A stretch of DNA of 64,000 nt, from the NCBI GenBank assembly GCA_928724745.1, contig CAKMXJ010000002.1, forward strand, positions 1,302,001 to 1,366,000, read 5' to 3'. Position numbers and translations under genes: made by a program. Below are positions 31,169-50,000 of the stretch, piece after piece. This DNA is from Anthracocystis setariae (lineage: Eukaryota > Basidiomycota > Ustilaginomycetes > Ustilaginales > Ustilaginaceae). Under the pieces are notes generated by a model. That model worked only from the letters and a program-made list of their open reading frames with translations, was not told where the DNA came from and ran no database searches. Numbering within the stretch: position 1 is the first letter of the stretch; each line of letters begins with the position of its first letter.

Positions 31169-31412
31169 TTCTGTGTTCTTTTCGACAAAGCCTTACCTTC
31201 TTCTACGCTCGCACCATACGCAAGAAAATTTTTTCTTCTCTACTTCAACATAGCCGCATATACTCGACAACCTCTTCATCATTCCCACGACAACGCGCGC
31301 CCGCAGGTCCTCTGACTTGCTTCCTCTCGATCCCGACATCCATCTCCTACCTCGTCGGCTTCACTCAACGTCGTCCCCTTCCGTCCAATCCGTAACCCCA
31401 GCGACGTCCATC

Positions 31413-32480
31413 ATGCCTGACTCCCCTCCCTCCGCCCCAGCCGGTTCGGCTGCGCCTGCTTCCAGCAACGATATGGGAGCTCTCATGGCTCAGTTGCTCG
31501 CTTCGTCGCTCAAGACGACCGAATTGCTTGAGCAACTGCTCGCAGGGCGCACTCCCACTCCTCAGTCCCCTTCTGTCGCGCCTACTCCTTCGCATCATCA
31601 TCTTGATGACCCTTCCCGCGATTCGCTGCCTCCGCACGAGATGCAACCTCTTCTTGACGTAGTCCGCACTACCGCCCAGCTGCGCCCAAAGGACATCGCC
31701 ACCTTTGATCCCGAAGACAAAGGTGATGTGGAGCTCTTCTGCCGTCGCATTCACGATGTGGCGGAGCTTCATCCTGCTTCGGTAGTCTGCGAGGCGCTTC
31801 CTCGGTGCCTTCGTGGAACGGCCCTTGATTGGTACACCAACTTGGGGGCCGTTGACAGGGCCAGCCTCCAGCGCAATCCCCATGCTTGGATTCGACTCCT
31901 CAAGGACCGTTTCGGTATGAGCGAAACCGAGGCCTTCAGCGAGTTACAGCGCATGCGATACAGCCTGGCTACCGACTACAACGCGTACCATGAGCGTGGC
32001 ATCCGTCTCGCTCGCATCGCTAATCAGACGACACCCAAGCAGGTCGTCCAGTGGCTGCTTAACGGCCTCCCCTTCGCCATGCAAGCGCAGCTCGCCACAG
32101 CTGCTGAAGACCCCAGCATCGACCCCAATGTCTTCAGGCGTAAAGCCCTTGCCGTTCGTGCAATCCTTCAACAGGGCAAGGAACGTCTCGCCGCGGGTAA
32201 GGATCAGGTCCGCCAGTCGCCCTCACGTCCGACATCTCAACAGCGCACTTTCGAAAGACCGGTTCGGCCCCCCCCCGCGGCCCTGTCAGCATTGCAACGG
32301 CTCGCACTGGGACGCTGACTGCCCCACCCGGGCTAAAGCGGTTCAGTTGTACAAGCCTTCAGCCCCTGCCGTGGCGACACATCACGCGCAAGCTGAGGCG
32401 CAGCAGCCGGAGCCGGACTACGAGACTGCGCAGTACGAGGCCCTGCAGGAGGCTTATTTGTGTCACTCGCAGGACGCTAC
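31413..32480 (+). pseudogene. gag: Outer element gag, 5' portion (interrupted; frame change at C9 tract)
   Basis: Structural protein of the virus-like particle. The start is the ATG at 31413 (MPDSPPSAPAGSA), the first ATG of the leader. A capsid-like helical region runs from about residue 90 to 260 (FDPEDKGDVELFCRRIHDV, LRGTALDWYTNL). At the C9 run 32268-32276 the frame that began at 31413 continues for only 14 codons, ending at 32318 with no nucleic-acid-binding motif. The frame one base ahead carries a zinc knuckle CQHCNGSHWDADC and stays open to the nested insertion at 32480. One extra C in this copy explains it most simply. The knuckle spacing is C-x2-C-x3-H-x4-C, one residue shorter than canonical. 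The gag end lies at 42175-42232. Confidence 0.8.
32476..32480. repeat. Target-site duplication of inner retrotransposon (left copy)
   Basis: GCTAC precedes the inner 5' LTR and GCTAC at 42170-42174 follows the inner 3' LTR. It lies within the outer gag frame. Confidence 0.92.
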
Positions 32481-32974
32481 TGTCACAGGCGGTGAAGCCG
32501 AGGCGGCGGAAAACTTGGTTTTTGGCCGCTCTCAGCCCAAGCGCGGTCGATAGGGTCGAATTCGGCCGCTCTGACATTGGAGGAGAGGAGGTACGAGGCC
32601 GGCAGTGCGTCGTATTGAGTAGTGTCGTTACCCCCAGGCGGCGTAGGCGGAGCGGTAGAAAACACGCTTTTCGGCCGCCGTCAGTGCGAGTGCGGTCCCG
32701 AGAGTCTCTTTCAACCGCTTCTGTTCATAGTGGTCGGATTGCGGCCGTTCGACATCACGGAGACGCCGGATCGCGACAACACCATCTCGAGGTGATCAAC
32801 AGTCAAGGGACACCATCTCCGGCGCTCTCAGAGGCTTGGAGGTGATCAGCCGCTTGTACCACGGTCAGCACATGCGCACACGCAGGCCATGCAGCTAGAC
32901 AATAGGCTAGCGCCGGATCGGCCTTGTCATAGGGGTTGGAGCTGTCTTACTTAAGGCCTCCTCCTCTGACTCGC

Positions 32975-32997
32975 AGTGGATGAGCTCCTCATCCACT
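32975..32997. other. 10-bp-stem inverted repeat at the inferred LTR transcript start
   Basis: AGTGGATGAG and CTCATCCACT are perfect inverted copies separated by CTC. The right arm contains the sequence complementary to the primer-binding site. The same structure is repeated in the 3' LTR. Confidence 0.8.
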
Positions 32998-33146
32998 CTA
33001 CTTCTTACAAACACAATCTTCAGCTCAGTATCTATTCTTGACGACGTCTTCACGATCATTCCAGTAACTAGTTTAGTAAGTTGCAATACAGTAGCATTGC
33101 AGCTTCCTCGCGTGCCTCCGTTCAAGTCGGAGAACAGCTAGTCCTC

Positions 33147-33225
33147 GTCGGTACGTGTACCGACACCGCAGCGCGTAAACGCTGCTTACACGCTGACACC
33201 GAGACGGCAGGCTCTTAGCCGTCTC
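33147..33225. other. Cluster of hairpins in the R/U5 part of the inner LTR
   Basis: Three consecutive inverted repeats occur within 80 bp: GTCGGTA/TACCGAC with loop CGTG (33147-33164), GCAGCG/CGCTGC with loop CGTAAA, and GAGACGGC/GCCGTCTC (33201-33225). They would fold in the leader of the genomic RNA and may act in packaging, dimerisation, translation or 3' end formation. Confidence 0.7.
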
Positions 33226-33592
33226 TCTAACAGCTTGGCGATCACTTCCAGTGACCACCTAACCAATCAACACGCCTTCTGTCTTGTCAAGAGCGCTCGC
33301 GAGACACTAGGCTATCACGCCGTAATACCGAGTACGCCGTGCTGCCGCTGAACGGAGCGCCAACAGCGTCAGTCGGTAATAGGTCGAACGCGGTCGAGAA
33401 ACTCACACTCCGCCGCCGCGGAATCGAGTGCGGCTTAATAGCCCTCATCGGGCCGCCGGCGTACCTGCGCAACCCACCTCGTACTCCTCCGTTGCACAGG
33501 CGTATATCACAAACTCGGCGGCCCAGCCCTGCAGGACCGCACCGCGCTCGAACCGAGATCGGCCTATTTACCAGGCGCCCGACCGCTGACAT

Positions 33593-33602
33593 TAGAGTGG
33601 AT
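33593..33602 (+). other. Self-priming primer-binding site of inner element
   Basis: TAGAGTGGAT starts two bases after the LTR end and is the exact reverse complement of ATCCACTCTA at 32991-33000 (and 41569-41578), just downstream of the TATA-like box. In Tf1/sushi elements the first nucleotides of the element's own RNA, rather than a tRNA, prime reverse transcription. Confidence 0.7.
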
Positions 33603-33628
33603 CGTTCAAGCAGCGCCCCGTACTCGAC

Positions 33629-35305
33629 ATGTCCGACGCAGCCGCGCCGCGAGGAAGCACTCCTCGCAGCCGGGCTTCGTCGCCTCCTGCAGCGAATCCG
33701 GAACCATTGCTGCAAGGCTTAATTGAGGACATACGACTTCAGATGAAGGAGGTCCATAATCAACGCATGGTTTACGAAGCTAGTCGACAGGAGGCCATGC
33801 TGAAAGAGAGTCAGGACCGACTCCGCTTCCAGGAGAAGCTCTACACACTCATGGACCAGGCGACCGGCTTCAAGTCGTCGTCCACGCCTTTGACAGCTAT
33901 CCCAGCGTCGTCGCGACCTCCAACGGCGCACCAGGAGGAGATCCTCGCGCTTAAGGCCGAGATCGCAGACCTCCGGGAGCTGATCAAGCCAGCTCTACGC
34001 CGAGGGGGTGAGCCGGAGGTCGCCGCCGTTGCTCCTGGCCTCGAAGCGCAAGAGGAGAGATCGTACAGCATGCACGATGACCCTCGGCGCTCTGCCCCGC
34101 TAGGTAGTTCCACCCCAGCCCGCCGGCCAGCGACGTCAGTCCTACGCTGGAATGACGAATACAGCCAAGAGGACTTGTATTCGACGTCTACCGGCCGACG
34201 CCCCGCCTGGGACCACCCCACGATGCCGACACGGGAATCAAACTTCGAGCGCAACACTACCAAGAACGACCCGAAGCTAGATTTCCCCGACTGGCAAGAG
34301 GATGACCTGGAGATGTCACTCATTCAGGTCGAGGCCTGGTTCCGATACCAAGAGATGTCCGACGGCCGCAAGAGGATCCAGTTCCTAGGGCCGCATCTCA
34401 AGGGTCGGGCTCTCACTTGGTACCGGTCAAAGCTACGAGCCGATCCATCCCAGTCGGGTGCGCTGTTCGGTGACTGGGCTCTATTCGTTAACCGACTCAA
34501 GCAGCTCTATGGAGTACACGACGAAAAGCTAGACGCTTTCAACAAGCTCTACGCTCTGCGCCTCGCCAGCGACAAACCAGGCGCCGCAAGCGAGTATGTT
34601 GAGGCGTTCAGGACCCTCGAAGAGCGCGCCGGCATGAGCGACGAACACCTCAAGCTCCACCTTTTCCGACGAGGTTTGACGACAGCTCTCCAGCGTCAGT
34701 TCGAACGCACGTCGCCGAAGACGATGTGGGAATTCTATCGTGAGGTAGAAGATTTGGACCGCAATCGGGTCCTGGCGCAACAGACGTACCAGGGCGGTGC
34801 AGCGACCCTCACTCAGCCGACTTCAAGTTCACTGCGGTACGATTTCCTCACTTCGGCCGGGCGAACTAACGCTCCGGCCGCCGTCGGTGCAAAAGCGGCT
34901 GGACGAGTATTAGCGCCGTCCGCGACAGAGCCTCGACCGGCTGCAGCCACACCCGCTCCAGCGCGCCCTCGGCCGTTACCGCCTCATATGGCCCAGCGCT
35001 TGCCCGTCGTCTACGATCGCTCACCGACGACCCTTGGTGCCACCACTTGCAAACGATGCGGTAAGGAGGGCCATTGGGTGCGAGACTGCCCCCAGCCGGC
35101 CCGCGAGACGTCCACCGGAGCGCCACGACGGCCTGGACCTCGAGCCTACGTCGCACAAGAGGACGTCGTGGCACACGAGGACGCCGAAGACCAGGAGGAG
35201 GAGGAGGAGGTGCTTGATTTTGAAGACCTCCCACCCCTCGCTGACGACGACCGGGTCGATGGTGATCCTGACGACGAGGGAAACGGGCGTGGGACAACCG
35301 AATGA
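33629..35305 (+). CDS. gag: Inner element Gag
   Basis: A structural nucleocapsid polyprotein of 558 residues from the ATG at 33629, the first ATG after the inferred transcript start. Residues about 20-75 are a coiled coil; about 195-370 form a retrotransposon Gag capsid-like domain (KLDFPDWQEDDLEMSLIQVE, FLGPHLKGRALTWYRSKL). A canonical CCHC zinc knuckle CKRCGKEGHWVRDC lies near residues 475-488, followed by an acidic Glu/Asp-rich tail. The stop TGA at 35303-35305 overlaps the pol ATG at 35302-35304 as ATGA. Intact. Confidence 0.93.
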   Translation: MSDAAAPRGSTPRSRASSPPAANPEPLLQGLIEDIRLQMKEVHNQRMVYEASRQEAMLKESQDRLRFQEKLYTLMDQATGFKSSSTPLTAIPASSRPPTAHQEEILALKAEIADLRELIKPALRRGGEPEVAAVAPGLEAQEERSYSMHDDPRRSAPLGSSTPARRPATSVLRWNDEYSQEDLYSTSTGRRPAWDHPTMPTRESNFERNTTKNDPKLDFPDWQEDDLEMSLIQVEAWFRYQEMSDGRKRIQFLGPHLKGRALTWYRSKLRADPSQSGALFGDWALFVNRLKQLYGVHDEKLDAFNKLYALRLASDKPGAASEYVEAFRTLEERAGMSDEHLKLHLFRRGLTTALQRQFERTSPKTMWEFYREVEDLDRNRVLAQQTYQGGAATLTQPTSSSLRYDFLTSAGRTNAPAAVGAKAAGRVLAPSATEPRPAAATPAPARPRPLPPHMAQRLPVVYDRSPTTLGATTCKRCGKEGHWVRDCPQPARETSTGAPRRPGPRAYVAQEDVVAHEDAEDQEEEEEVLDFEDLPPLADDDRVDGDPDDEGNGRGTTE

Positions 35306-38300
35306 TGGCTTGTCTTGCCCTGCAACCGCCCTCGCCATCACCCTGTATATATCGGAACTGTTCGTTGTGTTTCTCAGCCAACTCCAATCCATCGGTCCTC
35401 GAAGTTACCGGCACCATCAACGGGTGCCCGGCTCGCATCCTGGCCGACACCGGAGCTTCACTGTCTCTTCTCTCCAGCGCTTACGCTCGTACATATTGTA
35501 TTAACACCAGGACCACTCCCCAGCCCACCGCAGTCCACGGCGTCAGCGGCCATCGTCTAGCCATCACTCACGATGCGACGCTGGCTGTCAACATCGGCAA
35601 GCAAACCTTACCACCGCTGCAGGCCTATGTCGCGGACATCAGCGATTTCGATCTCATTATCGGCTACCAGGAGCTTCGCACACTTCAGCCGAGGATCGAC
35701 TGGGATTCGGGCCGAATTAAATTCACCGCGGCACAGCGGGATCAACTAAGCCGCGTTGAACACGACTTCGGCCCGACACATAATGCCACCAGCCGCGCCC
35801 TACCATCTAACGAGCCGGCTATCACTGTCCACGGAAACGAGTTCGTCTCATTCCAACAGCTCGTCCAAGCGTCCTATCAGGATGGACCGATTGGCATTAT
35901 GCTGATCGATGCTCCACCCTCATCGCTGCCCAGCTTCGGCTTCGTCCCTACCGGCGAAGACAAAGGCATCGAGATCGAGGTGGAACCGGAGTCACCTACT
36001 CCAGTATCGATCCCCGAGCATTATCGGGATCTCGAGGCGGTATTCAGTGAAGTCGAGGCCGACAAGCTGCCTCCTCGCACCAGCACTGACTTGCCCATTG
36101 AGCTCGTGCCGGGGGCCAAGCCTCCTCAGGGACCACTCTACCTCAAGGGGCCTAAGGAGATGGAGGAACTACGCAAGTACCTCGACGAGAACCTCGCGAA
36201 GGGGTTCATCCGACCATCAAAGAGTCCAGCGCGCTCACCAGTGCTGTTTGTACCGAAGAAGGATGGCGGCCTCCGCCTCTGTGTCGACTATCGAGGACTC
36301 AACGAGATCACAGTCAAGAACCGAGCGCCACTACCGCTCATCGAGGAGCAGCTGTTCCTACTGAGGAATGCCAAGGTGTTTAGCAAGCTCGATCTCAAGG
36401 CAGCGTACAACCTGGTACGTATAGCCGACGGCGACGAATGGAAGACGGCGTTCGGCACTCAGCTCGGCCTGTACGAGTACCTCGTCATGCCGTTTGGGCT
36501 GGCAAACGCGCCGTCGCACTTCCAGTCTCTCGTCAACGGCATCTTCCGTGACATCATCGGCGTCTTCGTCGTGGTGTACCTCGACGACTTCCTCATCTTT
36601 AGCAACAATGAAGACGAGCACGTCGAACACGTCCGCGAGGTATTGCGGCGTTTGCAAGCGAACCGACTCTTCGCCAAACTGTCAAAGTGCACTTTCCATA
36701 CTGACACCGTCGAGTTCCTTGGCTACATCATCACGCCAGGAGGCATCGAAATGGATCAGGAGAAGGTGCGAATCATCAAGGAGTGGCCGTTGCCGCAGAC
36801 GATTCACGACATCCAGCGCTTCCTTGGGTTTGCGAACTTCTACCGTCGGTTCATCTCACATTTCGCTCGGATCTCGAAGCCCCTCACAGCGCTCATCAAG
36901 CCTACGGAGCGGTTCAAGAAGCTACAACTGTCGGAGGAGGCGGTTGAGGCTTTCTACAAACTCATCGAAGCGTTCACGACGGCCGGGGTACTGCGGCATT
37001 TCGACTATCACAAGCCAACCCGCCTCGAGACCGACGCCAGCGACTTCGCCATCGCCGGCGTCCTCAAGCAGGAGACGGAAAAGAGATGGCACCCCGTAGC
37101 TTTCTATTCGCGCAAGATGACGTCGGCCGAGAGGAACTACGAGATTCACGACAAGGAGCTCCTCGCTATCGTTGCCTGCCTCCATCAGTGGCGACATATG
37201 CTGGCAGGGCTCCCGACTCAGTTCGCCGTTCTCTCGGATCACGAGGCGCTCAAGTACTTCACAGTGCAACGTCGCATTAGCGGTCGACAAGCTCGGTGGG
37301 CCGTGCTACTGGCCGACTTCGACTTTGTTGTTCAGTACCGGCCAGGAGATAAGGCTGGCGAGCCCGACTCCCTGACACGACGCAGGGACATGGAGCCATC
37401 GGCCGAAGAGCGCGAACACAACGTACAGCAGCTCCTCCACCCCCGCATGTTTGGAACTGTATTACCGAAAAATCAGTCATCGAGCCGAAGTGGACCCGAC
37501 CGCGGCTTAGCGGAGGCCATCAAGCCGCGGTCGTCGATGGCGGCAATAGTGAGGGGCGGCCTGCCGGAGTTAGCTCGCATTTTCCAGCCACTAGACACCG
37601 AGCTCCAAGCGCTCCACGAGCACACGCCCTTCGAGGTAAAAGACGGTCTATGGCATCGAGAAGGCCGACTGGTCATTCCCAAGGTCACGCTGGCGGGAAA
37701 GCAGGGTCGTCGTGACACACGCTCGGCCAAGATCGTCAGCGAGCAGTCACTCTCGGTGGAGCACCTGCGATTCATGGTAATGACACAGTGCCACGACGGC
37801 ATCACCGCCGGCCACCCGGGTCGTGATGCAACGCTAGTCCTCACTCAGCGACACTATTGGTGGCCGGGAATGCGTGCTTGGATTGCCGACTATGTAGCAA
37901 GCTGTCCAGTCTGTGCTCGCTACAAGGCACCCCGACATCGGCCGTACGGCCTGCTTAAGCCGTTAGCCACTCCCTCGAGGCCATGGGGTTCGATATCCAT
38001 GGATTTCATCGAGGGCTTGCCACCCTCCGACGGCTCCGACTCGATCCTCGTTGTCGTCGATCGGCTCACCAAGCTCGCGGTACTCATACCGACGGTCAAG
38101 ACTGTCACATCAGCTCGCACAGCAGAGCTCCTCCAGCAACATGTGTTCCGCCGGTTCGGAACACCCGAGCATATTGTCTCTGACCGCGGTCGTCAGTTCA
38201 TCTCAGCGGTCTGGAGGCGTTACACCGAGTCTCTGTCAATCCAGCATTCGCTTTCGACGGCGTATCATCCGCAGACGGACGGTCAGACGGAACGGGTCAA

Positions 38301-39057
38301 CCAGGTCGTTGAACAGTATCTCCGTATGTATTGCAACTACGAGCAGGACAACTGGGCCTCATTGCTGGCCAACGCCGAGTTCGTCTACAACAATGCGGTA
38401 CACAGCAGTCTCGGTGTCTCACCGTTCTTTGCATGCTATGGGTGGAATCCTAAAATGCACCCGGAAGTACCGGAGCGTGCAGGCGTGCTAGACCCTCAAC
38501 GGGCTGAGTTCGCCCGCTCGGAAGCAGAGCTCACGGTCTATCTACAAGCTCAAATTCGGTCGGCCCAGGCACGTGCGGTTGAACAGTACAACAAGAAGCG
38601 TCTCGACGTCGAGTTCAAAGTGGGTGAGCTCGTCTACGTCAACCGACGCAACTGGAAGACCCGCCGGCCGAGTCCCAAGCTCGACACCCGCTTCGCCGGG
38701 CCGTACCCTATTGTCGAGCGCATCGGCGCTAGAGCATACCGCCTTCAATTACCGACGTCGATCCGTGTCCACGATGTGTTCCACGTCTCGATGCTCGAGA
38801 AGCGGAGGTCCAGCGAGCTCGTTGGAAGGGATGAGCGTGCGGTGATACCGCCGTTGCACGACGAAGACCTCGAATACGAGGTCGAAGCTATCACGGGACA
38901 CCGCGCCGTCAGCGGCCGGCTGCAATACCGCGTCCTCTGGAAGGGCTATCCGGAGGAGCAAGCATCTTGGGAGTATGTGGATCTTCTCGCCTGCCCAGAC
39001 CTCATTCAGGAGTATGAGGAAAAGCGGGGGGGACGATTAAGGCGGCAAGCAAATTAA
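35302..39057 (+). CDS. pol: Inner element Pol polyprotein with C-terminal chromodomain
   Basis: A 1,251-residue polyprotein beginning at the ATG that overlaps the gag stop. In order: aspartic protease (ILADTGASLSLL, catalytic Asp near residue 49), reverse transcriptase (YLDD at 426-429, GLANAPSHFQ), RNase H (LETDASDFAIAGVL), and integrase with an H2C2 zinc finger (GHPGRDATL through SCPVCARYK, about 830-875). The DDE catalytic residues lie in SMDFIEG (about 901), IVSDRGRQF (about 960) and QTERVNQ (about 997). A chromodomain follows at about 1190-1245 (YRVLWKGYPEEQASWEYV). The protease-RT-RNaseH-integrase order plus chromodomain defines a chromovirus; the chromodomain is expected to steer integration to marked chromatin. 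All catalytic residues are present and the frame is open. Confidence 0.97.
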   Translation: MMACLALQPPSPSPCIYRNCSLCFSANSNPSVLEVTGTINGCPARILADTGASLSLLSSAYARTYCINTRTTPQPTAVHGVSGHRLAITHDATLAVNIGKQTLPPLQAYVADISDFDLIIGYQELRTLQPRIDWDSGRIKFTAAQRDQLSRVEHDFGPTHNATSRALPSNEPAITVHGNEFVSFQQLVQASYQDGPIGIMLIDAPPSSLPSFGFVPTGEDKGIEIEVEPESPTPVSIPEHYRDLEAVFSEVEADKLPPRTSTDLPIELVPGAKPPQGPLYLKGPKEMEELRKYLDENLAKGFIRPSKSPARSPVLFVPKKDGGLRLCVDYRGLNEITVKNRAPLPLIEEQLFLLRNAKVFSKLDLKAAYNLVRIADGDEWKTAFGTQLGLYEYLVMPFGLANAPSHFQSLVNGIFRDIIGVFVVVYLDDFLIFSNNEDEHVEHVREVLRRLQANRLFAKLSKCTFHTDTVEFLGYIITPGGIEMDQEKVRIIKEWPLPQTIHDIQRFLGFANFYRRFISHFARISKPLTALIKPTERFKKLQLSEEAVEAFYKLIEAFTTAGVLRHFDYHKPTRLETDASDFAIAGVLKQETEKRWHPVAFYSRKMTSAERNYEIHDKELLAIVACLHQWRHMLAGLPTQFAVLSDHEALKYFTVQRRISGRQARWAVLLADFDFVVQYRPGDKAGEPDSLTRRRDMEPSAEEREHNVQQLLHPRMFGTVLPKNQSSSRSGPDRGLAEAIKPRSSMAAIVRGGLPELARIFQPLDTELQALHEHTPFEVKDGLWHREGRLVIPKVTLAGKQGRRDTRSAKIVSEQSLSVEHLRFMVMTQCHDGITAGHPGRDATLVLTQRHYWWPGMRAWIADYVASCPVCARYKAPRHRPYGLLKPLATPSRPWGSISMDFIEGLPPSDGSDSILVVVDRLTKLAVLIPTVKTVTSARTAELLQQHVFRRFGTPEHIVSDRGRQFISAVWRRYTESLSIQHSLSTAYHPQTDGQTERVNQVVEQYLRMYCNYEQDNWASLLANAEFVYNNAVHSSLGVSPFFACYGWNPKMHPEVPERAGVLDPQRAEFARSEAELTVYLQAQIRSAQARAVEQYNKKRLDVEFKVGELVYVNRRNWKTRRPSPKLDTRFAGPYPIVERIGARAYRLQLPTSIRVHDVFHVSMLEKRRSSELVGRDERAVIPPLHDEDLEYEVEAITGHRAVSGRLQYRVLWKGYPEEQASWEYVDLLACPDLIQEYEEKRGGRLRRQAN

Positions 39058-39275
39058 ATTAGCCGCCCAGCCGCGTTGAATATTTAGCGGTGCGACGCGG
39101 GTCATTCAGCCGCTGTGACGCGACCGCGGCTCGATGGCATATTCACTGGGCCGCCATCGACACCCGTCACCACACACTCACACTCTTTTCTCAAGTTTCA
39201 AGACATCACGACCATTTCAGAAGTTTCTCAAGCACAACAAGAAGACAGAAACGACCTCAAATTACTGGACAATGG
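39058..39275. other. Convergent gap between pol and antisense gene
   Basis: 218 bp separate the pol stop from the stop of the opposite-strand gene. Nothing coding is seen; the 3' ends of both transcripts probably lie here or overlap. Confidence 0.55.
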
Positions 39276-40912
39276 TTAGCGGAAGACTTCAGGGCGGTGG
39301 TATCGTACCTCGTCCTCGTCGTCACCACGGCTCTCCACGAACCAGCCAAGACCCTCGAAGTTCGGCTCCTCCTCCATGACTTCGCACGGAAGGTATTGGC
39401 CGAGCAAGGAACGATTCTCGCGGTGATACCGCGCCAAGGTCTCACGCACCTGAGTCCCAATGGCGCCCTCCGTTGAGAAGGCGTCGCGAGCGTCGAGGTG
39501 GAAGGATCGCTCCTTGAACCAGTCCACCAGGCGGTCGCGACGCCGCACTGCACCCAAGCCAGGCCCACCAGCGTACGATAGGTGGGCACGCACCACAGCC
39601 CGCTCGTGCGTTTCCAGCGTGGTGTAGGGGCTATCGCCGATGTATTCGTGACGTGTGGAGCGCCAGATCGTGCGGCCGCCACATTTCTTCTTGCTCGTCA
39701 AGCAGTGACAGCACGACGAAGCCGCCGGTCGGGGACGAGGACCAGTGGGATCACCATAGGTGACCGGAAAGCACCTGATTAATCAAAAGACGAGTCAGAT
39801 TGTCAGTGCTGCCCAAACCACTTACTTTGGAACGATACTTACGGTACATCCAGGTCGGTACAGTGCTGACAGCTGTAGTTCGGCCATGGCGAGCTACCCT
39901 CGGTCAAGCGCCGCACCATTGTACGGTGCAACCAAACTTTCCCGGCATCGTCGAGCTGCCAATTGCGGTCCCAGGCCTCGTTGACAATGGCAATGAGCAG
40001 CGCGGGGGCGGTAAATCGCTCCGTCCATTCCAGCATTTCGGTCAGAGTGGGTTTGCGTGGACCGGTACGTTGCGGCACCACGTCCTCGGCTCGGCGAACG
40101 GGCGGCGGGCCGATCTCAGGCGTTCGGCGGCCGGGCGAACCCAGTAGAGGGCCAAGATCAGGCGTCTGGCGGCTGGGCGACCCCCAGGAACCCATAGGCG
40201 TGTCAGCGCGCCCAGGACCAGCGGGCTCGTTCGATTCGGCACCATAAGCGGGTGAGCGGGGTCCCACGGGCGAGGCTGGCGTTAGACCATGCTCATGGAG
40301 CTGCGCGCTCGTCATCACACGCAGCTCCTCGGCCGAGAACCTCACCGGAGAGGTAGGGATCCGCGAAGGAGAGGTGGGGGGCGCGTACAGTTCCGGCGAC
40401 GAACGTACGTAGACCGGCGAGCGAGGTGGCGAAATCGAACCTCTTGAAGAAGGCGAGCGCGACGGGCCGAGGAACAGGGGTACCAGCAGGGAGCCGCCCC
40501 CAACAGACGCAATCCGGCTCTGTGGAGGGGTCACGGCGACTGGCTCGGGGACACCAGTAGGGGACGCAACGGCGTTGGGCGGGGCAGTAACAGCAGCTAC
40601 AGCCATGGTGTCGGATTCGGCAGTCACAGTAGCTACAGCCACGACATCCGGCGCGGTAGCAGCAGCAATCTGGGTCCCTCCATCGGTTGGGACGGCAGCA
40701 GCGATTACAGCCATGGAGTCGGACAAGTCAGCAGTGGCGGCAGCGACGACGGCGACAGCAGGCGCGGTAGTACTGGTAGACGCAACCGGGGCAGCACTGG
40801 CGCCGGACGATGACTGGGAGGCGGTATCAACGCCGGCTGGCGTCTTGGCGAGCCGAGCCGATCGACGCGAAGGAACGGCAGGCGCAGTAGTGGTTTTCTG
40901 TTTGGGAGCCAT
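39276..40912 (-). CDS. Antisense two-exon gene carried by the inner retrotransposon, Zn2Cys6-like
   Basis: Exon 1 is 40912-39843 and exon 2 is 39774-39276. The 68-bp intron has GTAAGT and TTAATCAG ends and CTGAC branch-like motifs. The joined frame is 1,569 nt, 522 residues. The N-terminus has a basic RRSARLAKTP motif, then Ala/Val/Thr-rich degenerate repeats and a Ser/Pro-rich region to about residue 270. A folded-looking segment follows at about 300-345 (LTEMLEWTERFTAPALLIAI). Cysteines 348, 351, 358, 378, 381 and 388 give C-x2-C-x6-C-x19-C-x2-C-x6-C. The intron falls in codon 357, so this pattern exists only after splicing. The spacing equals the fungal Zn2Cys6 DNA-binding cluster except for a long middle loop and few basic residues in the first half. 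After it comes a charged helical domain to the C-terminus. Function is unknown; a DNA- or nucleic-acid-binding regulator is an inference. Confidence 0.75.
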
Positions 40913-41058
40913 GGTGCTGATGGCGATGAAGAAGCTGAGAGTGATGATGGTAGTTCTTCAAACTCATCATTCAGCCGCCGAAGGGCTCACAGCGGCTGGA
41001 AGATGCGCAGTCCATTTCATTTCGCCTCGCAGGAGCTCGGGTCTCGGACGGGGGGTAA
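40913..41058 (-). promoter_or_regulatory. Presumed promoter/leader of the antisense gene, next to the 3' LTR
   Basis: Only 146 bp separate the antisense ATG from the 3' LTR, so its promoter probably lies here and in the LTR read backwards. The last bases before the LTR (G run at about 41050-41055) also serve as the polypurine tract of the plus-strand element. Confidence 0.4.
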
Positions 41059-42169
41059 TGTCACAGGCGGTGAAGCCGAGGCGGCGGAAAACTTGGTTTT
41101 TGGCCGCTCTCAGCCCAAGCGCGGTCGATAGGGTCGAATTCGGCCGCTCTGACATTGGAGGAGAGGAGGTACGAGGCCGGCAGTGCGTCGTATTGAGTAG
41201 TGTCGTTACCCCCAGGCGGCGTAGGCGGAGCGGTAGAAAACACGCTTTTCGGCCGCCGTCAGTGCGAGTGCGGTCCCGAGAGTCTCTTTCAACCGCTTCT
41301 GTTCATAGTGGTCGGATTGCAGCCGTTCGACATCACGGAGACGCCGGATCGCGACAACACCATCTCGAGGTGATCAACAGTCAAGGGACACCATCTCCGG
41401 CGCTCTCAGAGGCTTGGAGGTGATCAGCCGCTTGTACCACGGTCAGCACATGCGCACACGCAGGCCATGCAGCTAGACAATAGGCTAGCGCCGGATCGGC
41501 CTTGTCATAGGGGTTGGAGCTGTCTTACTTAAGGCCTCCTCCTCTGACTCGCAGTGGATGAGCTCCTCATCCACTCTACTTCTTACAAACACAATCTTCA
41601 GCTCAGTATCTATTCTTGACGACGTCTTCACGATCATTCCAGTAACTAGTTTAGTAAGTTGCAATACAGTAGCATTGCAGCTTCCTCGCGTGCCTCCGTT
41701 CAAGTCGGAGAACAGCTAGTCCTCGTCGGTACGTGTACCGACACCGCAGCGCGTAAACGCTGCTTACACGCTGACACCGAGACGGCAGGCTCTTAGCCGT
41801 CTCTCTAACAGCTTGGCGATCACTTCCAGTGACCACCTAACCAATCAACACGCCTTCTGTCTTGTCAAGAGCGCTCGCGAGACACTAGGCTATCACGCCG
41901 TAATACCGAGTACGCCGTGCTGCCGCTGAACGGAGCGCCAACAGCGTCAGTCGGTAATAGGTCGAACGCGGTCGAGAAACTCACACTCCGCCGCCGCGGA
42001 ATCGAGTGCGGCTTAATAGCCCTCATCGGGCCGCCGGCGTACCTGCGCAACCCACCTCGTACTCCTCCGTTGCACAGGCGTATATCACAAACTCGGCGGC
42101 CCAGCCCTGCAGGACCGCACCGCGCTCGAACCGAGATCGGCCTATTTACCAGGCGCCCGACCGCTGACA
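41059..42169 (+). repeat. 3' LTR of inner element
   Basis: 1,111 bp, identical to the 5' LTR except A at 41321 where the 5' copy has G (32743). It is preceded by a purine-rich GGACGGGGGG tract suitable for plus-strand priming. Confidence 0.95.
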
Positions 42170-42232
42170 GCTACCCCGGATCTGTCCTCCTCGTCTGACG
42201 AGAGTACCGATCTCTCTACGCACGTCGACTAG
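42170..42232 (+). pseudogene. gag: Outer element gag, C-terminal end and TAG stop
   Basis: After the right GCTAC duplicate, the outer gag frame resumes at 42175, encodes a short acidic Ser/Asp-rich tail (PDLSSSSDESTDLSTHVD) and ends at TAG 42230-42232. The frame is continuous with the zinc-knuckle frame left at 32480 and with pol. Confidence 0.8.
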
Positions 42233-42268
42233 GAACTCGTGGGGGGACCTGCACGCCAGCTCTCCCCA
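42230..42268 (+). promoter_or_regulatory. Putative stop-codon readthrough signal between outer gag and pol
   Basis: TAG is followed after 7 nt by a hairpin: arms TGGGGGGA (42240-42247) and TCTCCCCA (42261-42268) pair over 8 positions (one G-U). After a C-C mismatch the stem extends by CTG/CAG around the loop CACGC. Stop codon, spacer of about 8 nt and stable structure is the layout of gammaretroviral-type readthrough sites. Confidence 0.65.
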
Positions 42269-45200
42269 ACCCGTCTTCCTCCCGACAAATCATCCTTACC
42301 AATTATCGACGCCCATGAACCCGCTCCGACCTTCCACCTCTTTCCCTCTTACCTGCGTCTGCGTGTCCAACCTCCCGGAGGCGCCACATTCGAAGCATGT
42401 TTGGATACCGGGTCCACACTGTCTCTCATCGACCAATCTCTACTTCAATCCTTCACCTATTCTATGTCCGAGAACGCCATGCTGGTAGACACCGTCAGCA
42501 CCCCGACCCGTACTCTAGGTTCCGCCACATTCACGCTCGACATTCCCTGTCCGCCTCAAGCAATCGCGCGCACACATGTCAAGTGCCACGTCGTCGCCCA
42601 TCTTCCCCCTCGCCTTATCCTAGGTATGGATTTCATCCTCGCCCACGGCATCCTTTTTGACGCCATCAAGTCCGTCATCACTCTCCAATCTTGTGGCCTT
42701 CGCACGGCAGTTCTGGTGGCTCGCGACGTTTCCAAAGCATCACCAATCGTCGCTCAGGTCATCGGACCTCCTCCTGATGGCGTCCTCGCCCCCGACATGC
42801 GCGCACCGCCTGATATGGACTCCTACACGCTTCCTTTCACCATCATTCCCGACCAACTCCATTCGAACGCCTTACCAACCTTCGACGACGATTTTCCTTC
42901 CGACCGCAAAGCCGAGTTTCTTGCGCTCTTCGACCGTTATCCGGACGTGTGGCGCCCAGGACTAGGCATGCTTACAACAGGCGATGCTATGCGCCTGCCT
43001 TCGCGCGAACTGGATGAAAACCCAAGCAAGTTCAAGCCGCGTCTCTATCGTGTCTCCCAACGCGATCGTCAGGCCATTGACGAGGTTTTCGATGAGCTTG
43101 CCCGACAAGGTCGACTCCATAAGGCACCTCCTGGGACACCATGCGGGTGGCCGGTATTTGTAGTCTATCGCAACGGAAAACCGAGGCCTGTAGTTGATCT
43201 CCGCCAGCTGAACGCCGTCGTGTTACCCGACCACTACCCCCTTCCGACTCCAGACGAGTTACGGGAGCGTCTCGCCGGCGCTCGTTTCATCACGACGTTT
43301 GATTTACGCAAAGCCTTTTACCAAATGCCGTTGCATGAAAACGACCGCTGGAAGGCCACCGTCCTTACCCATCGTGGTCAGGAGACTCTCGCGTGTACCA
43401 TTATGGGCCAGTCCCGCTCTGTAGCCTTCCTCCAGCGAACTCTCACGGACGCCTTCGCCACCGCTGGTCTTGGCGCCAAAACCTTCATCTACGTCGACGA
43501 TTTTGGCGTGCGCTCAGCTACTCTGGAAGAGCACCTGCATGACGTTAAGGCCGTCCTCGACGTCATACAGCGCCTTGGTCTCACCTTGGCTCAAGACAAA
43601 GCACACGTGGCCCGGCGTGAAGTGCCCTTACTTGGTCATTTGGTCTCTGGTACAGGTACACGTACTCTGCCCTCTAAATGTGCGGCGATCCAGCGCATCG
43701 AGTATCCTAAGACACTCAATCAACTCGAGCACGTCATCGGGTTCTTTTCCTATTATAAGAACTACGTGTCTCGCTTCGCCGCGCTTATTCGCCCCCTCCA
43801 GAACATCAAGACTCAGCTACTTCGTGGCGCGCCCGTTGGTGGTCACGCTCGAAAAAAGCATTGCTCCTCAACGCCAGTTCCTCCCGATCCTGCAGCACTT
43901 CAAGCACTACTCGAGCTCAAGACCATCCTCCAAAACAAGGTGCTCCACTTCCCCGATTACAGCAAGCCCTTCTTACTGTACGTGGATGCATCGCAACAAC
44001 ACGGATTCGCGTTAGCGCTACATCAGAACCTGAGCACTCCACCCCTCGCGCCCTCCCAGCCGGCTGAAGTTCCCATCTGGTTTGACTCCCGCGCTCTTCA
44101 ACCGACCGAGCGAGCCTATTGGCCGACCGAACTGGAGGCGGCCGCTGCCGTCTGGGCCTTACAACGCGTAAAGCGTTTCCTCGACGCATCGCCAGGGCCG
44201 CATTTGCTCTTCACCGACCACCAAGCGGTGACGTCCATTGCCGATGCCAAACCCTTCTCCACCACGCCTGCGGCTCACAACCCGCGCCTTGTTCGCTTCG
44301 CGCTCATTCTCGCGGAATTCCGACCTAAGCTTACTATTCTCCATCGGAAGGGTATCTACATGACGCACGTTGATGCGCTCAGTCGGATCCAAGCCGCGGA
44401 AGAAACCAGTCTAGTCGCGCACGCTCATACCGTCACCTTAAGCCCTTCTCTGCGTACCGACATCCTTTCTAGCCAGTCCACGGATCAGGCCTTCGCTCGA
44501 ACCCGGTCCGACCTCGTGAGCAAAGCAAACGGCAAACGACCCTTTCATAACGGCGCTTTTGGCATCGACAAAGACGACTTACTTTACAAGATTGATGACG
44601 ACGGCACCTGGCGCATCTGCATCGGCCCTTCCGCGCTTCCGCGCCTCATTGCCCTTGCTCACTCCGGTCACCTCGGCGTGAAAGCTACCTTCGACCGATT
44701 TCGTCAAGTTGGCTACGCTCCACACCTCCTTCGCCACGTGGACAACTTTGTTCGCCATTGTACGCACTGTCAACAGACCGCGACCCACCGCCATCGCCCC
44801 TACGGGTCTCTCCAACCTCTCGCCAGCCCCGCTCTCCCTTTCGTCACCCTCTCGTGCGACTTTATCGTACGCCTTCCCCCTGTCCGGTCCTCCTTTGATC
44901 GCGATCTGCTGGACACTATCTTGGTTGTTACAGATACGGGAACTCGGCGAATCTACCTTCTTTCAGGTGCTACTACTTGGTCTGCCGAGCAATGGAGTTT
45001 CCGATTTGCCGAACGGCTTCTGCCTCACATCGGTTGGCCTCAGAAGCTCATAAGTGACCGCGATTCCCGACTTACTTCCCAGTTCTGGCGCTCATTACAT
45101 GCCCGGTATGGCTGTGAGCTTGCTTTCTCCACCGCCCATCATAAGAGCGATGGCCAAAGCGAGCGAGCCATACAGTCCGTGGAGATGCTCCTTCGCGGGC

Positions 45201-45934
45201 TATGCAACGCCTGGTCCGATGATTGGGCAACGCATTTACCCTTGGTGGAGCTCCTTCTAGGGAATCGCGTCAACGCTTCCATCAATGCCGCACCGAACGA
45301 TCTCCTCTACGGTATCAAGTTACGCGACCCGTTCACCGCGATCCAACCTGTCTCCTCCCTCGGTGACCTCACCCTACCTGACCGTCGCGTGGCATTGCGC
45401 CGGGAAGCGCTGGATCATCTGGCCTCAGTTCAGGCATACATGAAGTATAGGTATGACCGTCTCCATTCCCCACCCCCCAAGCTACAAGTCGGCGACTGGG
45501 TGTGGTTGAACATAGGCGAAGGTTACACAGTGCCCAAAGGACAGCTGCCTCCGGATCGTCGGCTCGGCATTCAACGAATTGGCCCCTTCCCGATCAGTCG
45601 CGTGGTAAGCAACTTAGCCTACGAATTAACCCTCCCCTCCGACTCACGCCTTCATCCCGTTGTCTCCATCCAGCATCTCGAACCGTACATACCCTCCGGC
45701 AAGCCGATCGCCTCCACCAAGGTAGCGATGATCCTTAAAGAACGTCATCTCAAAACTCGTGGACGTCAATTCCTTGTGCGGTACGAACATTCTGGACGTG
45801 ACCAATGGATTCCCGCCTCAGCCATTACCGACCCCTCCATCCTTGACGCCTGGCGCGTCCGACAATCCTCGTCGACCCTGCCAGACTCATCCGCCCCTCC
45901 GCAAACTCCAGCTCCACAGTCTCCTTCCACCTAA
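42233..45934 (+). CDS. pol: Outer element Pol polyprotein, in frame with gag after TAG
   Basis: 1,233 codons open from directly after the gag TAG to the TAA at 45932. There is no ATG in the first 75 codons, so independent initiation would lose the protease; expression as Gag-Pol is implied. In order: aspartic protease (CLDTGSTLSLID), reverse transcriptase (FDLRKAFYQMPL, YVDD at about 420-423), RNase H (LLYVDASQQHGFALAL), integrase with H2C2 finger (HLGVKATFDRFRQ, HCTHCQQT), and DDE residues in LSCDFIVRL, ISDRDSRL and SERAIQ. The C-terminus (KTRGRQFLVRYEHSGRDQWI followed by ITDPSILDAW) resembles a divergent chromodomain. No disabling mutation is seen in pol. Confidence 0.93.
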   Translation, partial: ELVGGPARQLSPTRLPPDKSSLPIIDAHEPAPTFHLFPSYLRLRVQPPGGATFEACLDTGSTLSLIDQSLLQSFTYSMSENAMLVDTVSTPTRTLGSATFTLDIPCPPQAIARTHVKCHVVAHLPPRLILGMDFILAHGILFDAIKSVITLQSCGLRTAVLVARDVSKASPIVAQVIGPPPDGVLAPDMRAPPDMDSYTLPFTIIPDQLHSNALPTFDDDFPSDRKAEFLALFDRYPDVWRPGLGMLTTGDAMRLPSRELDENPSKFKPRLYRVSQRDRQAIDEVFDELARQGRLHKAPPGTPCGWPVFVVYRNGKPRPVVDLRQLNAVVLPDHYPLPTPDELRERLAGARFITTFDLRKAFYQMPLHENDRWKATVLTHRGQETLACTIMGQSRSVAFLQRTLTDAFATAGLGAKTFIYVDDFGVRSATLEEHLHDVKAVLDVIQRLGLTLAQDKAHVARREVPLLGHLVSGTGTRTLPSKCAAIQRIEYPKTLNQLEHVIGFFSYYKNYVSRFAALIRPLQNIKTQLLRGAPVGGHARKKHCSSTPVPPDPAALQALLELKTILQNKVLHFPDYSKPFLLYVDASQQHGFALALHQNLSTPPLAPSQPAEVPIWFDSRALQPTERAYWPTELEAAAAVWALQRVKRFLDASPGPHLLFTDHQAVTSIADAKPFSTTPAAHNPRLVRFALILAEFRPKLTILHRKGIYMTHVDALSRIQAAEETSLVAHAHTVTLSPSLRTDILSSQSTDQAFARTRSDLVSKANGKRPFHNGAFGIDKDDLLYKIDDDGTWRICIGPSALPRLIALAHSGHLGVKATFDRFRQVGYAPHLLRHVDNFVRHCTHCQQTATHRHRPYGSLQPLASPALPFVTLSCDFIVRLPPVRSSFDRDLLDTILVVTDTGTRRIYLLSGATTWSAEQWSFRFAERLLPHIGWPQKLISDRDSRLTSQFWRSLHARYGCELAFSTAHHKSDGQSERAIQSVEMLLRGLCNAWSDDWATHLPLVELLLGNRVNASINAAPNDLLYGIKLRDPFTAIQPVSSLGDLTLPDRRVALRREALDHLASVQAYMKYRYDRLHSPPPKLQVGDWVWLNIGEGYTVPKGQLPPDRRLGIQRIGPFPISRVVSNLAYELTLPSDSRLHPVVSIQHLEPYIPSGKPIASTKVAMILKERHLKTRGRQFLVRYEHSGRDQWIPASAITDPSILDAWRVRQSSSTLPDSSAPPQTPAPQSPST

Positions 45935-47029: not shown

Positions 47030-50000
47030 ATGCCGTTTGCAGGTCTCCTCAGGCGAACCCCGTCGCAATCACGGCTCGACTCTAAGGCCTCAGCTGCCTC
47101 GATATCCTACCACGCATCCGGCTCAACATCAGCTTCTAAACCTCCAACATCTCCTTCGAGTCCGGATCGCTTCACCTTTGGTCGCAGCGCCAAGGATCGT
47201 TCTACCGTCGCCGCAGACGCTGCACTTCTTCGGCCGCGTCCCATCCATGACAGCAAGCGCTTTTCCAATTACTCGACACCAGACCATCACAACATCGGCC
47301 AGGCGCCATCCCATGCTCGGTCTCGCTCTGCAGCACCATCGCCATCGCCTTCATCTGCCAACGATCGCCCCCGATTGTCTGATCCATCAACTATCAACCT
47401 ACCGGTCAACCAGTATGATCGACTCTTTGGTCTCTCTCCACGCCAAACGCCTGTCGCAATCGTCAAGCAACCATCAACTGCACCATCCTCGTCATCAACG
47501 CACATCGCATCCTCCGCGCCGGTCGAATCCCCAGAACCCACATCTGCGCGATTGCCCACCGACCGACCAACTTCCCCACCTTCAGCGTCGGCGTCATCGA
47601 CACTCTTGCCAAGTCGAAGCACCAACACTCGATCTCCCTTCCCGCCCGCTTCTACCTCGACCGGAACTAGCGCCATCCAGCGAGACAAGTCGATCGTGAG
47701 CAACTCCATCTTTCGCAGGCCAAGTCTGCGTCGCCGTAGAAGCTCGCACGATTCAACCAACGAGATCGTAGACAAGATCATGTCGCAACATGCTCCTGGC
47801 ACATCCACCGCAGATGCCGAGGCCAAGCCAAGGCCAGCGCCAACCGACTCGGCTGTTGCTTCCAATCTAGCCCCGGTCAATGCTGTTGCTTCCAAGCCAG
47901 TTTCTTCAACTGCAACTGCTCCAGCTTCAGCTCCGGTTACCGCAGGCCGCTTCGCCCGCCTGTTTCGGCGAAGAAAGTCCATATCGAGCCCCATCAACAC
48001 TTCCATGGTCTCCAAGCCAAATCTGATCGCGCACCCCATGCCAGCTCTCAAGGATGCCTCTTTTGCAATCAACAGAAAGTCTCCTCCCTTGGCCATCATC
48101 TCCGCCGCCGCTGATAAGTTAGCCAACTTCAATCCCGACTCTACCCTCAGCAAGACAGAGCCACGCCCTTCAACAGGCACACAGCAACCAAGCGTCCTAC
48201 CCAGCTCGGCAACGCAACAGCCTGAAACAGCGCAAGCTGAATCCAATCTTCTGACGGTCGACAGCACCACCGACCGGGGCCCGACATTCACCTTTCCTGG
48301 CCATTCGTCTGTTTCGGAAGACTCTGTCCAGAAGAATGGTGCCTTCTCAGACAATGCTCGACCAAGGCAGGCCAAGCATTCGACCAGCCGATCACTGCCT
48401 CTTGCTTCGTTGCCCGTTTCCAGTGCCGCACCGCCTTCGGCCTCTCCAAATCCATCAATAGGCACGTCAGTCAACAGCCTTCAGCGACGCCCAAGTCAGC
48501 TTGGACGCAGTGTGAGACATCGAAAGAACAGCAAAAGCCTTTCCATAATCGGCAACATCTTCGGTAGCTCGACCTCCCCTCCATCCTTGCCGTCGACGAC
48601 CGCCATCAGCCCAAAGTTGCTTCAAGCCGAAAACCAGTCAAGCCAAAAGAAGGAAGCATCTGCGTCAAACATCGCTCGTAGACCCTCGCTCCGCTCGCGT
48701 CTCAGGATTGGAAAGGGGAGCATGGACAAGGACTCCAACCGTCCTACGACTCCGGAGATCGAAAGTTGGAAACGAAGCAGTGACAACAGGCAAGCTCCAT
48801 CTGCTGCCCCTAGAAGTCGAGCCAGCGTCGACGGCCTTTCTCGTCCTCAGACTTACGAATTGCCGTTCAAGATCACCAGGTCCAGAAGCGCTATCCGACG
48901 CAAACCCGCACCCGAGGTCAAGCAGGACGAGATCGACAGCAGCTCGAGCACGCCCGTGCACAGCTCTTCATTTCGAGTTCTTGACGTCGGTAATCCTCGC
49001 GGAGGCAGCCTCGCCTCGTCTCCGGGTGAGCAGTCTGCTGATCTTCCTGGCTTCTTTTCTGACGCTGGACACAGCCCCAACCTCCTCGCTCCATCCCCCA
49101 CTGCTTTGGCAACCGAGGCTAGCATCTCGGCCAAGACCGATCAGATCAGGTCTAGCCCGGTCCAGGGTCTTGGCTTGAGTGGTACGTATGACAATTCCAA
49201 CGACGGTATGACTCGTTTGGTGCCGACCATCGATATCCGACCTAGCACACCGCCTCACGATGCCGTTCTCACTTGCCCCGAGCATGATTCCAGCATGCGA
49301 GAAAGGCTCGTGCTTTCTTCATCTTCGCCTCTGCCTGACATGCAACCTCGTTCCGAGGCGCACAGCATTGCTCCTTCGGCTGCCTCACACGATCGTCCTT
49401 ATTCTTTGATCAGCGCCTGCGAGACCGATACGCCTCTTCTCAAGCTGCGAAAATTTGTCGTCGACACCAACGGCTCCGACGACGGCAGAGATGGACACGG
49501 CATCGGGCTCTTCTTCCAACCCGTCGACCGAGATGGTAGAGACAAGAAGAATTCACAAGTGGCTTCGCCCACTGAAGAGCTTGCACAAGACTATACCAAG
49601 AAGGAAGCGGTGGCGGCACCTGCCGAACACCCAGAGCGATCGCGATCTGTCTCCCAGTCGACCACACGCTCAGATACTAAACATGAAATCTCTTCGATTC
49701 ACACGCATGATTCAAGCACGGTTCGCCCGTCTCGCAGTCTTGGAGCTCAGACCAGCACGTCGGTGTTCTCCACTGCCTCTGCAGCTCCTTCGAATGCTTC
49801 GACGACCTCCACTGTTGGACTGCACAACCCGCCGATCGATCTGGGTGGCGTCACCGCGAAGCCGGTCTCTGTTGTGACCGCTGCTGCGGATGACGGCGAT
49901 GCCGAACGCGACGATGATTCTGTTGGTCCTCTTCCCGGCAAGAGCCCAGCCATGTCTCAGCGTTCGCTGCGCTCACGTCAGAGTCCACGGGATAGCACGC

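Follow-up and report, generated by a model that had tools for sequence, protein, structure and literature searches.

A spliced antisense gene with a six-cysteine cluster in a chromovirus of Anthracocystis setariae is under codon-level selection and may encode a nucleosome-anchored protein

What does a spliced gene that runs antisense to gag and pol do inside a retrotransposon? This question is raised by a 64,000-nucleotide stretch of the genome of Anthracocystis setariae (Basidiomycota, Ustilaginales; assembly GCA_928724745.1, contig CAKMXJ010000002.1, positions 1,302,001 to 1,366,000 of the forward strand; hereafter the window), in which a young Ty3/gypsy chromovirus at 32481-42169, nested in a second gypsy element, carries a minus-strand gene between pol and its 3' long terminal repeat (LTR). 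A preliminary description of this DNA had proposed that two open frames of 357 and 165 codons are joined there by a 68-bp GT-AG intron, and that splicing completes a zinc-type cysteine cluster. The results presented below indicate that the protein is selected for as a gene of the element, and the best reading, which we hold with middling confidence and draw from sequence comparison, is that it may be an element-encoded, nucleosome-anchored accessory protein. The family of the window chromovirus is designated family A, and B, C, and D denote further families in the same genome. The antisense gene comprises the following features, given in window coordinates.

39843..40912, minus strand: exon 1, with the ATG at 40912 (frames and joined translation)
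39775..39842, minus strand: intron of 68 bp, GTAAGT...CAG, interrupting a codon after its second base and holding a branch-like motif, CTRAC (sequence and conservation)
39276..39774, minus strand: exon 2, with the second half of the cysteine cluster, the C-terminal domain, and the stop (open in 20/20 sequences)
39681..39871, minus strand: six-cysteine cluster, codons 348-388, spanning the intron (cysteines invariant in 20/20)
40844..40867, minus strand: RRSARLAK, codons 16-23, an HMGN/Dsup-like predicted nucleosome-binding core (invariant in 20/20)
40986..41010, minus strand: unit of ~30 bp upstream of the ATG, single in the window copy (upstream alignment)

The joined antisense protein is 522 amino acids (aa) long, plus stop. 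The two frames, the intron, and their location between pol and the 3' LTR were as described, and the proposed cluster spacing, C348-x2-C351-x6-C358-x19-C378-x2-C381-x6-C388, was verified at positions 348, 351, 358, 378, 381, and 388; C379 and C487 also occur. It was likewise borne out that neither exon alone holds the cluster: the pattern is completed by splicing alone, and a six-frame reading of the window contained no unspliced cluster pattern. The intron donor reads CCG TAA, an immediate stop, so that unspliced RNA would terminate after residue 357 with half a cluster. When GTRMG donors on both strands of the window were paired with an AG lying 50-90 bp further along and with a reading frame, only this one of the 3,672 resulting combinations gave a junction-spanning cluster match, which, together with the closed state of the other frames reported below, upholds the earlier claim that a chance origin is very unlikely.

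The genome searched (21.5 Mb in 36 contigs) contains at least 30 listed places matching the antisense gene. Those examined were the window and 20 other copies; nine of the 30 places lie outside this set, including fragments and one old copy. The old copy, at C28:1929513-1931112, contains stops, indicating that some copies do decay. One examined copy with a divergent N-terminus (L021, C28:1003942) was counted for the cluster and the splice and left out of the other counts (dN/dS, codon, frame, and upstream), which are therefore based on 20 sequences. The GTAAGT donor, a CAG or TAG acceptor giving an intron of 68-75 bp, and the six cysteines were kept in 21/21 examined copies, and the CTRAC motif was present in the intron of 20/20 sequences; the length and letters of the intron vary except for GTAAGT, CTRAC, and AG. 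In 20/20 sequences both exons are open in the gene frame, and the other five frames are each open in 0/20, save for one, which 2/20 sequences have open in exon 2. LTR and opposite-strand pol sequence adjoin the antisense gene in 20/20 fetched copies.

Selection was estimated from codon alignments by the Nei-Gojobori method as the ratio of mean nonsynonymous (dN) to mean synonymous (dS) divergence, using 183-186 of 190 pairs, with pairs of dS <=0.02 or not computable excluded from the means. For the 20 sequences, dN/dS was 0.38 over aa 1-190, 0.18 over aa 191-300, 0.042 over aa 301-347, 0.032 over aa 345-392 (dN 0.027, dS 0.85), and 0.090 over aa 393-522, with an overall value of 0.19. The last 60% of pol, computed likewise from codons of pol nucleotides 1501-3765 and the best blastn piece per copy, gave 0.067. 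The dS of the antisense gene followed that of the sampled pol (Mantel r 0.65, reached by 0 of 2000 permutations). Low dN/dS combined with dS tracking pol indicates that the protein is kept by selection as a gene of the element, and the conserved cysteines and purifying selection that the preliminary description had proposed to look for were both found.

Further evidence on the splice came from relatives, which that description had also suggested seeking. A protein search matched P0001, a 638-aa 'hypothetical protein' from Kalmanozyma brasiliensis (Ustilaginales), at 47% over residues 290-522 and with six cysteines. With P0001, family B was found, a second gypsy family carrying an antisense homologue: its pol is 69% identical to the window pol and has a chromodomain, its antisense frame of 630 aa (L029:4213-6105) lies between pol and the 3' LTR, its LTRs (C28:674329-675173 and 682692-683536) show an identity of 100, and its three copies are 99-100% alike. 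The family B cluster has no intron (CERCWRLGVPCFRS...CTNC...KC) and is continuous where the window gene is interrupted; at the junction, B has an unbroken LGVPCF where A has LDVP/CF, the slash marking the intron. That the intronless gene reads straight across this point corroborates the splice in A. The A and B domains gave a local alignment score of 197, compared to a maximum of 59 in 300 shuffles, and an unfiltered BLASTP comparison gave 99.8 bits. A profile search with A1, with P0001 in the profile and scoring of just the candidates sharing most words, returned nothing, and viral contigs yielded no relatives.

Families A and B also meet at C18:230808-250043: here ~17.6 kb of inserted DNA interrupts a family A antisense gene, and this insertion contains a family B element that has an antisense gene itself. 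Next to the family B element described above, the frame L029:6957-7475 (C28:683456-683974) encodes a tyrosine recombinase / phage integrase domain (PF00589, E 5.5e-8) and may belong to what we would call a Crypton-like element; DNA resembling the stretch next to the family B LTR also occurs at C7:582909, C36:603594, and C8:415232.

The slot between pol and the LTR is occupied by other antisense genes in two additional families. Family C, whose reverse transcriptase (RT) is 58% identical and which has a chromodomain, carries a 622-aa antisense frame (L030:891-2759; C8:456893-458758) between pol and LTR, with LTRs at C8:451258-451618 and 459099-459459. The pattern CWSC-x10-C-x22-C-x2-C-x6-C was present in 8/8 loci (L031-L038), and among the matches listed there are at least 48 matching pieces, with many copies open over 600 aa. 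Variable sites at the three codon positions of the antisense frame numbered 34, 29, and 71 in eight sequences, and 12, 10, and 15 in the first 150 codons, where the signal is weak. A sense frame of at least 735 aa overlaps in 7/8 loci; given that the antisense third position is the sense first position, the excess of variable sites favours the antisense frame. No ATG precedes the cluster in the antisense frame of 6/8 loci, which makes an upstream exon possible. Family D, examined at one of 16 places listed, has a chromodomain in pol, an antisense gene at L039:3953-5458, and LTR copies, each at least 333 bp long, at C7:512470-512802 and 520588-520920. It is related to C (local score 174 vs at most 56 in shuffles) and also to P0002, a protein from ENA. 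In families B, C, and D, each represented by one element with LTR copies on both sides, the antisense slot lies inside the LTR bounds. Homology between A/B/P0001 and C/D/P0002 was considered and is unsupported, with an hhalign E of 0.058 on 26 columns and nine cross-group local scores that were equalled by 12 to 126 of 300 shuffles. In our view, the slot and the CxxC pairs that A/B and C/D have in common reflect either parallel use or homology beyond detection.

What, then, is the cysteine domain? The preliminary description had likened it to the fungal binuclear zinc cluster, in which the pattern is C-x2-C-x6-C-x(about 5-12)-C-x2-C-x(6-8)-C, with basic residues in the first half. The likeness holds for the half-site spacing, as the window protein shares two C-x2-C-x6-C halves with the GAL4-type Zn2Cys6 domain (PF00172), but it fails in the 19-residue loop, in the lysines (KKK), which lie in the second half, and in the Pfam search, where no family, PF00172 included, was listed for the joined domain at E up to 10, a range in which HMMER filters discard most hits above E ~0.1. 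Canonical membership of PF00172 is ruled out by this absent profile match.

Near the N-terminus, within the fastest-changing region of the protein, RRSARLAK is identical in 20/20 sequences, even as each of its eight residues is spelled with 2 or 3 codons across them. HMGN proteins are described as binding nucleosomes through the core RRSARLSA, Dsup having a similar one, and in the cryo-electron microscopy structures reported, HMGN2 R23 and R26 and Dsup R363 and R367 sit in the acidic patch (PMC12487698, PMC6773438). In the window family the first six residues are identical to this core, followed by A-K for S-A, in 20/20 sequences, and as in HMGN and Dsup the core lies near the N-terminus among many Ala, Pro, Ser, and Thr residues. 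The window motif differs in standing inside a larger, retrotransposon-encoded cysteine-cluster protein; no overall similarity was seen, and the HMGN family profile (HMG14_17) was unmatched in Pfam, exon 1 giving just DUF7547 at E 0.55. Family B has RRSTRL at 33 and RRSARL at 106, 179, and 213. In 20,000 shuffles of the window protein, RRSARL appeared in 0.04% and the looser RRS[AST]R[LIVMR] in 0.26%. The invariance and recurrence of RRSARL make the motif a serious lead, and a nucleosome-binding-type motif at the N-terminus would make a chromatin role more specific.

The element that carries the gene has the remaining features listed here.

32476..32480, no strand: target-site duplication GCTAC, left copy (printed sequence context)
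32481..33591, plus strand: 5' LTR, TG...CA, 1,111 bp (blastn between LTR regions, sequence context of ends)
33596..35305, plus strand: gag frame, Retrotrans_gag PF03732 and CCHC zinc knuckle (frames, Pfam)
35272..39057, plus strand: pol, with protease, RT, RNase H, integrase, and chromodomain PF00385 (frames, Pfam)
41059..42169, plus strand: 3' LTR (blastn between LTR regions, sequence context)
42170..42174, no strand: target-site duplication GCTAC, right copy (sequence context)

The two LTR regions aligned by blastn over 1,114 bp with 2 mismatches, of which one falls a single base beyond the LTR. With gag-pol, an integrase after RT, a C-terminal chromodomain (PF00385, E 1.1e-12), and LTRs on both sides, the element is a chromovirus, and PF00385 is present in the pol of families B, C, and D too. 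At 41025-41067, 43 bp that take in the run of G preceding the 3' LTR and the beginning of the LTR itself match family B at 88%, the rest of the B LTR being unmatched in this element. The outer gypsy element has a gag-like frame on the left (31254-32318) and a 1,233-aa pol frame on the right (42233-45934), in which Pfam matched RT, RNase H, and integrase, with no hit for a chromodomain. Within the 1.3 kb that follow the outer pol, the minus-strand frames are 116 and 108 aa long, and further on a 397-aa minus-strand frame (47287-48480) lies opposite a 1,660-aa frame.

Under the reading of a nucleosome-anchored accessory protein, the gene would be transcribed from a promoter in or beside the 3' LTR. 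The ~30-bp unit between the ATG and the LTR (CTGCGCATCTTCCAGCCGCTGTGAG...), present in 2-3 copies in L015, L017, L018, L020, and L026 and in one copy in the other 15 aligned sequences, could be a candidate promoter or binding site. The intron would survive transposition because it is reversed, and so unspliceable, in the genomic sense RNA. The protein, in which RRSARLAK at the N-terminus would be the anchor and a long variable linker leads to C-terminal helices with the splice-assembled cluster, would enter the nucleus, where the RRSARL arginines may grip the nucleosome acidic patch and the cysteine domain may bind zinc and probably DNA. It could then act on the element's own chromatin, tuning transcription or steering integration beside the Pol chromodomain. 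A bolder and only tentative extension is that an HMGN/Dsup-type anchor, evolved or borrowed, coupled to a new splice-assembled cysteine domain, ties the element to chosen chromatin, and that an antisense zinc-type chromatin or nucleic-acid regulator may be a standard part of the chromoviruses of this fungus; the occurrence of two double-CxxC groups without detectable homology in one slot suggests that such a regulator is standard in their life cycle.

Several observations weigh against a nucleosome-anchored protein. RRSARL is six residues picked after the fact, which is weak alone; the RRS(A/T)RL repeats of family B are partly a tandem duplication; P0001 has RRSTRR at 47, so that just RRSTR is kept; and RRSxR occurs in none of the C and D proteins or P0002, implying that such an anchor is not common to all the antisense genes here. 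With default filters, a BLASTP comparison between A and B returned just RRSARLA, at E 0.65. Pfam gave no match above cut-off for the antisense proteins of A, B, or P0001, and a PDB search gave no match. In a structure model of P0001 (three rows), the mean pLDDT, the model's confidence score, was 38.8 and the cluster was not resolved; just 10-residue blocks over 381-420, corresponding to helices before the cluster, reached pLDDT 75-85.

Among other explanations, it is possible, if doubtful, that the antisense protein restrains its own element as a copy-number or repression factor and is not a transposition helper. An antisense protein that binds DNA or chromatin could compete against transcription of the sense strand, and pol and the antisense gene converge, 218 bp apart; however, selection over a mean dS of ~0.6, as strong in the C-terminal half as in pol, fits a helper at least equally. 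We consider it unlikely that the cysteine domain binds RNA, or acts in the particle as a second nucleocapsid, and not on chromatin: CxxC clusters can bind RNA, and with a CCHC knuckle in gag, zinc modules are normal in such elements, but the conservation of RRSARLAK points to chromatin and the CCHC Pfam model found no match in the antisense protein. It is very improbable that the antisense transcript is the active agent, through double-stranded RNA or interference, with the frame as a passenger; roles for antisense RNA have been proposed for such elements (PMC7264820), yet purifying selection acts here at the codon level, and the gene frame alone is open throughout the 20 sequences. Scarcely credible, too, is a recently captured host gene. 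The spliced structure does look host-like, as the preliminary description had held, and the surroundings of the Kalmanozyma homologue lie outside the comparison; against this, LTR and opposite-strand pol lie beside the gene in every fetched copy, divergence tracks pol, a diverged relative occupies the same slot in family B, and the genome matches listed, of which 21/30 places were examined, showed no recognisable host copy apart from the elements. With this and the unmatched PF00172, the label of a host-type gene was not sustained. Chance open frames joined by a chance GT-AG can be discarded, as copy conservation, dN/dS, frame counts, and the combination scan all refute them.

The preliminary description had also called such genes rare in LTR retrotransposons, which was overstated, as antisense extra genes are a known class there. 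The window gene has the position of the aORF-3R type, as it runs opposite to gag-pol in the interval from pol to the 3' LTR and within the LTR bounds, and its conservation in all 21 copies examined, of at least 30 places, also agrees with this type. A review describes antisense retrotransposon genes as having no clear similarities to database proteins and as being of unknown function (PMC7264820). The nearest fungal counterpart is brtn of the Boty-like elements of Botrytis cinerea, likewise antisense in a gypsy element with a chromodomain Pol (PMC8365987, PMC4227169) and placed in the same slot (PMC7264820); the brief descriptions of brtn in these sources, which are the basis of the comparison in place of sequence, mention no cysteine cluster or intron, and three protein searches listed no Botrytis proteins. 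Other aORF-3R genes, Grande gene23 and those of RIRE2, PvRetro13, and Retand (TRP28), belong to gypsy elements of plant, not fungal, hosts. The Grande product is reported to be nuclear (PMC7264820, PMC11963269), and its gene is transcribed from its own antisense promoter. Retand, unlike the window element, is a non-chromovirus; its TRP28 is thought able to bind DNA (PMC7264820, PMC11963269), and Pfam did not list TRP28 (PF04195) for any antisense protein of families A to D or for P0001. Nor did Pfam match an SMC domain in the antisense protein, unlike in plant aORF-3R genes. HTLV HBZ and APH-2, described as antisense-coded nuclear retroelement proteins (PMC11963269), are works-alike at most.

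In the literature, as searched through titles and the openings of abstracts, no cysteine-cluster antisense gene or RRSARL motif was found in a fungal retrotransposon. As far as that literature shows, what is new is a version with splicing and a cysteine cluster, the finding that four chromovirus families within a single fungus have antisense genes, the evidence of selection on codons, and an HMGN-type motif in an antisense retrotransposon gene. A study of LTR elements in smuts is described as having screened element frames for Pfam domains (PMC9603552), and given that no Pfam model matches the antisense gene, such a screen would not have named it.

These results place an antisense gene under clear codon-level selection in a class for which, according to the review, no function has been determined (PMC7264820). 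Its intron has two lines of support, its conservation and a relative without an intron, and the genome has at least four element families with a gene in this slot. The two motifs yield direct predictions, zinc or DNA binding for one and binding of the nucleosome acidic patch for the other, so that the question of what antisense retrotransposon genes do becomes testable with purified protein. In the HMGN connection, Dsup has been called the sole protein from outside the vertebrates for which nucleosome binding has so far been found (PMC12487698); if RRSARL does bind nucleosomes here, the HMGN/Dsup mode would extend beyond animals.
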